Shown one piece after another: positions 14,024-14,782 of a stretch of 27,668 nt of DNA. The stretch is from a virus. The stretch spans positions 1 through 27,668 of IMG/VR virus record IMGVR_UViG_3300030117_000895. One strand, written 5' to 3'. A program made the position numbers and the translations under genes. Positions within the stretch are counted from its first letter, which is position 1; each line of letters begins with the position of its first letter. The notes below the pieces were generated by a model. That model searched no databases and was not told where the DNA came from. It worked only from the letters and a program-made list of their open reading frames with translations.

Positions 14024-14106
14024 AAATAACACTATATTAAACTCATAAACTATAAAAAATAGCCGTACAATGTGCGTAAGCCTTATTTGCGCTATGTGCC
14101 CCCCTT

Positions 14107-14206
14107 ACGTTTCCGTTAGGAAATTCACGTTTAGGTTAGAAAAGTGACTTTTGGGTTAGTTACCTTACGTTAACGTCAGATACCTTACCTATACGTCAGT
14201 AAAACG
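14107..14206 (+). repeat. Five direct iteron-like repeats with exact 20-bp period
   Basis: Units start at 14107, 14127, 14147, 14167 and 14187. Each begins AC(G/T/C)T and has GTTAG (units 1-3) or GTCAG (units 4-5) at offset 8-12, followed by a 7-base linker that often ends in CTT. Unit 1 begins ACGTTTCCGTTAG, unit 2 ACGTTTAGGTTAG, unit 3 ACTTTTGGGTTAG, unit 4 ACGTTAACGTCAG and unit 5 ACCTATACGTCAG. The period is close to two helical turns, so a protein bound to all units would sit on one face of the DNA. Confidence 0.75.
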
Positions 14207-14211
14207 CCTGG

Positions 14212-14230
14212 AATGAGAATGAGTCTCATT
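14212..14230 (+). promoter_or_regulatory. Fur-box-like operator 1
   Basis: AATGAGAATGAGTCTCATT reads as hexamers AATGAG, AATGAG, one base, CTCATT. This is the same 6-6-1-6 layout as the Fur consensus GATAAT GATAAT C ATTATC. As a 7-1-7 element (TGAGAAT G AGTCTCA) 11 of 14 positions fit TGATAAT N ATTATCA. It is followed by TTGCATTAA, as is site 2. Confidence 0.55.
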
Positions 14231-14253
14231 TGCATTAACTATCTAGTATCCTT

Positions 14254-14272
14254 ATTGCGACTGAGTCTCACT
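14254..14272 (+). promoter_or_regulatory. Fur-box-like operator 2
   Basis: ATTGCGACTGAGTCTCACT, 42 bp after site 1. Its core TGCGACT G AGTCTCA has arms matching at 6 of 7 positions. It shares CCTTATTG upstream with site 3 and TTGCATTAA downstream with site 1. It is the weakest of the three against the Fur consensus (9 of 14). Confidence 0.5.
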
Positions 14273-14289
14273 TGCATTAAGCCCACCTT

Positions 14290-14308
14290 ATTGAGATTGA
14301 GTCTCATT
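14290..14308 (+). promoter_or_regulatory. Fur-box-like operator 3
   Basis: ATTGAGATTGAGTCTCATT, 36 bp after site 2. Its core TGAGATT G AGTCTCA has arms matching at 6 of 7 positions; 10 of 14 positions fit the 7-1-7 Fur model. The consensus of all three sites is the perfect palindrome TGAGACT-G-AGTCTCA. Confidence 0.5.
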
Positions 14309-14411
14309 ATCACCGAAAAAGCTGGAATTTACGAAATTAATAGCAAATATACAATATATTTATAATGCTAATTTTGTTGTATTATTGGGCATGAAATTAC
14401 ATAAAAAAACA

Positions 14412-14429
14412 CAAAACGCTCAAAACGCT
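14412..14429 (+). repeat. Tandem 9-bp direct repeat
   Basis: CAAAACGCT is repeated twice without gap, just after the AT-rich tract and about 50 bp before the first gene of the rightward operon. It could be a binding site for an initiator or regulator. No function can be read from it alone. Confidence 0.55.
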
Positions 14430-14479
14430 CATTTTAATAGAAATATGAGTTTAGTAGAGCGGAAAGGATAATAGATACA

Positions 14480-14782
14480 ATGAGTATAATAACAAAACCA
14501 AAACCCAAAACAAGTGAAAAACAGTTTAGGCTATCTCTAAGCTCGGCAGGTATGGATAAAGAGCTAATAGATGATTTAGTCAGAAAAGCTCAATTAGCTG
14601 GTACTGTTACGACTACTAGCAGAGGGAAATTAGATGTATTAAGAGCTAACTTTCCAGAGTTTGCGGAGATATGTGAAAGACTAGAACGCTTCGAAGCAGA
14701 GAATAAAGAAGAGATAGATACAATTATGATAGAAAATGGATTCCCTCCTGTAGCGAAAATGAGTATAAACATAGCGAAGTAG
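14480..14782 (+). CDS. Hypothetical protein after the control region, 100 aa
   Basis: The protein starts with a basic, flexible segment (MSIITKPKPKTSEKQFRL) and continues as helices (GMDKELIDDLVRKAQLAGTV; EICERLERFEAENKEEID). The middle part SRGKLDVLRANFPEF could belong to a small DNA-binding fold, but no family is recognised. As first gene after the iteron array it is a candidate regulator or origin-binding protein by position only. AAAGGA lies 11 bases before the ATG. Confidence 0.65.
   Translation: MSIITKPKPKTSEKQFRLSLSSAGMDKELIDDLVRKAQLAGTVTTTSRGKLDVLRANFPEFAEICERLERFEAENKEEIDTIMIENGFPPVAKMSINIAK

Follow-up and report, generated by a model that had tools for sequence, protein, structure and literature searches.

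A conserved array of probable host Fur boxes in the control region of an uncultivated marine virus

Introduction

Fur boxes have been modelled by Baichoo and Helmann as 21-bp (7-1-7)2 elements, in which the overlapping 7-1-7 arrangement represents two Fur dimers on the DNA (PMC3090418, PMC7536154). Here we analyze an array of three elements of this layout in the IMG/VR virus record IMGVR_UViG_3300030117_000895, the whole 27,668 bases of which are called the window. Both in the Baichoo-Helmann box and in the viral array, two heptamer palindromes overlap with an offset of 6 bp, and the consensus of the array agrees with TGATAATGATAATCATTATCA at 16 of 21 positions; however, the array has a central TGAGTCTCA instead of TGATAATCA, belongs to other phyla and stands in tandem within a virus.

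A host Fur site in a phage genome is known from the stx1 promoter of Stx1 phages, where it lies between -35 and -10 (PMC10042803). That case is a single site at a prophage toxin gene, whereas here an array stands upstream of a rightward gene series, in a virus record in which no integrase was seen. Multiple boxes on multicopy DNA are also exploited in the Fur titration assay (FURTA), used for example in PMC3145626. The boxes of the assay would compete for Fur, as would those of the array; FURTA is a laboratory device, however, whereas the viral array is natural and its last box has a fixed promoter geometry. Phages under other host regulators include corynephage with DtxR and CTXphi with LexA; phage genes are there under a host regulator, as they would be here, but the regulators differ and the sites are fewer. 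To our knowledge, the only viral genes known to respond to host iron status are those behind single toxin promoters in prophages, and a literature search, whose coverage left out most subscription papers, turned up no description of phages with Fur-box arrays. Phages with one site for a host regulator, as at stx1, are already known; a conserved marine array that recurs across virus groups is a new form of this.

Results

Three Boxes with the Architecture of Fur Sites

The sites lie in the intergenic region 14024-14479, flanked by two rightward genes and downstream of iteron-like repeats. Three 15-bp palindromes are found there, at 14214-14228 (TGAGAATGAGTCTCA), 14256-14270 (TGCGACTGAGTCTCA) and 14292-14306 (TGAGATTGAGTCTCA), each with one mismatch to TGAGACTNAGTCTCA. 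With up to three mismatches, TGAGACTNAGTCTCA has 6 matches in the window against 1.87 expected, and one of the three additional matches is an overlap with a 6-bp offset within site 3. The initial annotation of this DNA had recognized the three palindromic sites, but placed them two bases too low and gave them a left half, TGAGACT, of which there is no exact copy. Its 7-1-7 palindrome is present, yet it is too small a unit: the relatives define a 21-bp unit, TGAKANTGAGTCTCANTAKCA, made of two 7-1-7 palindromes offset by 6 bp, which is the architecture of a Fur box.

These relatives were gathered with the metallophosphoesterase gene near the array (377 retrieved, 80 kept), and their syntenic control regions were compared. 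One to six sites, all in the same orientation, are present in 27 of the 42 distinct regions, which bears out the conservation that had been named as a check on the sites. The consensus of 91 unique sites is cTTAtTGAKANTGAGTCTCANTAKCAa, and the TTAT-like 5′ flank is conserved. On the + strand of the window the full units are box 1 at 14214-14234 (TGAGAATGAGTCTCATTTGCA), box 2 at 14256-14276 (TGCGACTGAGTCTCACTTGCA) and the promoter-proximal box 3 at 14292-14312 (TGAGATTGAGTCTCATTATCA), the last being the exact consensus of the array. When a weight matrix derived from 88 of the relatives' sites, with the window excluded, is run over the window, exactly these boxes come out as the top three, box 3 with 35.3 bits, box 1 with 30.8 and box 2, the weakest, with 24.3, while the maximum over 40 shuffles is 13.2. 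The near relative L288 has all three boxes, none of them with more than one difference (box 1 identical, box 2 differing at one position), at nearly equal spacing. The comparison with gamma-proteobacterial Fur sites proposed earlier appears to be the wrong yardstick: the E. coli consensus GATAATGATAATCATTATC agrees with sites 1 to 3 at 13, 10 and 14 of 19 positions on the + strand, and unrelated positions of the window also score up to 14 of 19.

Relatives without the array (L009, L016, L017, L028, L038, L043, L049 and L050) carry another promoter-like module, TTGCATGG or TTGACTTTTGGCAAAA, which looks like an exchange of control cassettes. In one subclade, copies of TGAGACTGAGTTTCA occur just past the metallophosphoesterase gene; as the next gene begins there, they were taken to be probably coding and left aside. 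No phage matched the control region in a nucleotide search, and the isolated Puniceicoccales phage P8625 is without the sites.

The Same 21-mer Precedes Iron Genes in Bacteria

The exact 21-mer occurs in at least 118 bacterial genome stretches, against about 7 by chance on a rough estimate, and 96 among the 118 matches listed belong to Planctomycetota, Verrucomicrobiota or Poribacteria according to the record titles; a near variant is found in Marinimicrobia. Allowing up to two mismatches, all 13 genomes examined, which had been chosen for holding a match, contain the motif and none contains the reversed pattern. Marinimicrobia provide an unbiased sample, with matches at no more than one mismatch in 29 of 245 genomes and none for the reversed pattern. 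Among the genes behind the bacterial boxes are those for TonB receptors, Fur (in Marinimicrobia, for example, in L398 and L406), FeoA, FTR1, flavodoxin, ExbB, FecCD and a periplasmic binding protein. Because the 21-mer stands before bacterial iron genes and the reversed control has no matches, we regard it as an iron-Fur box. The Fur-box label given to the window sites at the outset therefore holds up, on the strength of this association with iron-uptake and fur genes, the empty control, the overlapping 7-1-7 layout and the absence of a Fur gene from 31 virus records (see below). Judged from sequence, the window sites are very probably boxes for a host Fur, and we conclude that the Fur of such bacterial hosts would recognize them.

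Two further patterns were seen among the bacterial sites. In Opitutales (L098, L126, L130, L139, L170 and L193), TonB-receptor genes often stand behind two boxes exactly 23 bp apart. In Planctomycetota (e.g., L088, L108, L113 and L168), an exact box is often found ahead of genes for DUF1559 proteins with an N-terminal methylation motif; DUF1559 genes make up 14 of the 73 genes scanned behind Planctomycetota sites; we know of no link between DUF1559 and iron.

The Last Box Keeps a Fixed Distance to a Downstream Block

Downstream of box 3, after 8 bp, the window carries a conserved promoter-proximal block, GCTGGAATTTACG (14321-14333, + strand). Such GCTGAATTTACG-like blocks are present in 18 of the 42 control regions, each of which has a box, and in none of the 15 regions without one. 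The gap from the nearest upstream box to the block is 7-9 bp, or 17 bp in four regions that retain solely that box, a gap longer by roughly one helical turn; no gap value was obtained for the last listed site of L045, which is situated past the block. The constant distance between the block and the last upstream box suggests an operator.

Further downstream, the alignment of the relatives places a tentative -10 element of the rightward promoter, TATTAT, at 14380-14385 (+ strand). Five bases after it starts a conserved tiny leader open reading frame (ORF; 14391-14471, + strand), which in the window reads MKLHKKTQNAQNAHFNRNMSLVERKG. Recognized in the same alignment and translated by eye, it follows the pattern M/V-K-I/L-x-x-K-x-Q/E-N-A-Q-N-A-H in most box-bearing relatives, and its distance from the block is 93-95 bp. 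There is no Shine-Dalgarno sequence at this ORF, which is possibly a leaderless leader peptide or else a DNA element with the repeat AAAACGCTC. The fixed geometry of box, block and ORF argues for control of the promoter downstream.

Arrays in Other Virus Groups and the Search for Viral Fur

The pattern occurs in at least 120 stretches of viral contigs, and the reversed pattern in none. Other virus groups (L226, L228, L238, L239, L266 and L220/L260/L272/L324) have two to five intergenic Fur-type boxes, some of which adjoin the gene for the terminase small subunit; the five boxes of L228 are set at exact 31-bp steps. Some of the groups with arrays at other places have a metallophosphoesterase 62-79% identical to that of the window, and in others none of the window proteins tested has a homolog. 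A contig of the TMED88 metagenome-assembled genome (MAG), placed in a bacterial bin (L186), also carries a phage terminase small subunit gene together with two Fur-type boxes 30 bp apart, and is probably a virus contig.

A search of 31 virus records, which include some fragments, found no Fur gene (PF01475), while the same search was positive in 13 of 14 control genomes. Small virus proteins without assigned function may bind the sites.

The Host

Marinimicrobia are a weak best guess for the host, suggested by three weak indications. At their free positions and in their flanks, the virus boxes are most like those of Marinimicrobia (45 of 91 sites, by a small margin), and tetranucleotide usage is nearest to Marinimicrobia among 20 sampled stretches, a panel without the wider marine range. 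One Marinimicrobia MAG includes a 5.3-kb contig with a metallophosphoesterase of 50% identity and weaker homologs of two control-region genes, although this contig is possibly a binning error. Two observations speak against a Marinimicrobia host: the virus sites vary less at the central GAG than Marinimicrobia boxes do, and no close relatives of the terminase were found in 273 genomes from the order to which an Opitutales MAG belongs, or in those of 245 Marinimicrobia, 387 Verrucomicrobiota and 294 Planctomycetota. Since matches of 31-36% occur in Marinimicrobia and Planctomycetota alike, the terminase does not decide the host. Known phages proved too distant for an assignment, with best identities of about 25-30% for terminase, capsid and helicase. 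SAR11 was judged unlikely as a host because classic Fur boxes were not found in Pelagibacter (PMC3090418).

Gene Context

The leftward genes of the window are structural (capsid, portal, large and small terminase). The rightward series starts at 14480 with the first larger gene past the array (14480-14782, + strand), which has no assigned function, and includes genes for a pyrimidine dimer glycosylase, two amidoligases, a glutamine amidotransferase, an exonuclease, a RusA-like resolvase and a DnaB-like helicase. A repeat search places the iteron-like repeats at about 14100-14198, so that the array indeed lies between iteron-like repeats and a rightward gene series, much as had been stated. A ATAGCCGTACAATGTGCGTAAGCCTTATTTGCG-like stretch at 14058-14095, 3′ of gene 13766, is kept in relatives with and without the array. 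No tRNA was found in the window or in ten related loci.

Discussion

Host iron state may well influence infection through the Fur-box array. We lean slightly toward transcription control as its main role, with iron-loaded host Fur making the rightward genes iron-responsive. Dimers of the loaded protein would occupy every 21-bp box of the phage genome, and the array so bound, whose end lies about 68 bp upstream of the putative -10, would tie rightward transcription of the early and replication genes to host iron. Most likely, Fur would repress these genes when iron is sufficient and release them when it is limiting. Additional boxes would raise occupancy and, after genome replication, could also draw Fur off host promoters. 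The effect of the array, its binding and its direction we infer from sequence; the same holds for control of early transcription or replication, which the spacing to the promoter block favors.

Several observations weigh against this account. No box occurs in 15 of the 42 control regions of the relatives, and the host is putative, Marinimicrobia being a weak best guess. The putative -10 lacks a standard -35 at the 17-bp spacing, and box 3 stops well short of the promoter instead of covering it; in the classical Fur-repressed layout the box lies over -35/-10 or the start site, which is not the arrangement seen here, at a promoter that is itself putative. Moreover, there is no helical phase among the upstream boxes (R = 0.14, n = 62), as might be expected of a Fur sponge.

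Such a sponge is the main rival, although we consider it rather unlikely as the primary role. Replicating genomes would titrate host iron-loaded Fur and thereby derepress host iron uptake and flavodoxin, much as in FURTA. It would agree with the variable number and the lack of phase of the boxes, with the different placement of arrays in other virus groups, and with a putative promoter that no box covers. However, the sites are not free of promoter geometry, as those of a sponge would be: the proximal box keeps its 7-9 or 17 bp to the block, and four regions have kept that box alone.

It is considerably less probable that the boxes are read by another host protein of the Fur family (Zur, PerR or Mur type) and that the signal is accordingly another metal or peroxide. 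The 7-1-7 layout is common to the family, and the fur genes next to bacterial boxes score below the curated NCBIfam cut-offs; but all five tested score best as iron Fur, and the neighboring genes, such as FTR1, feoA and flavodoxin, are iron genes. A part in the replication origin, with the boxes linking initiation to Fur or serving as initiator sites alongside the iterons, appears marginally less probable still. The iteron-like repeats adjoin the array and GC skew switches sign at about 13000, but the skew switch coincides with the change of gene direction too, and the array goes with the promoter block and is missing from many relatives. The boxes are palindromes common to host iron genes, and the iteron-like repeats are separate from them. 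Least probable of all is the alternative raised in the initial annotation, operators of a phage-encoded repressor that resemble Fur boxes by chance, for which tandem operators at an early promoter would be typical and several small genes near the array have no known function, but which found no support. The same 21-mer precedes iron genes of bacterial hosts and recurs in further virus groups, no Fur-family gene was found in the 31 virus records searched, and genes 13154 and 13766 are present also in box-less relatives.

Tentatively, and with rather less confidence than for transcription control in the window, several marine virus lineages may have gained host Fur-box arrays independently, such that iron gates the early genes while replicating genomes sequester Fur and derepress import. 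If true, this would be a viral takeover of the host iron response in an iron-limited ocean. The motif offers a regulator-based hint to the hosts of viruses for which no host is known, and it shows what the iron box looks like in poorly studied phyla. Iron limits much of the ocean, and a conserved array in a common uncultivated virus group, with counterparts in other groups, would tie viral replication directly to iron.
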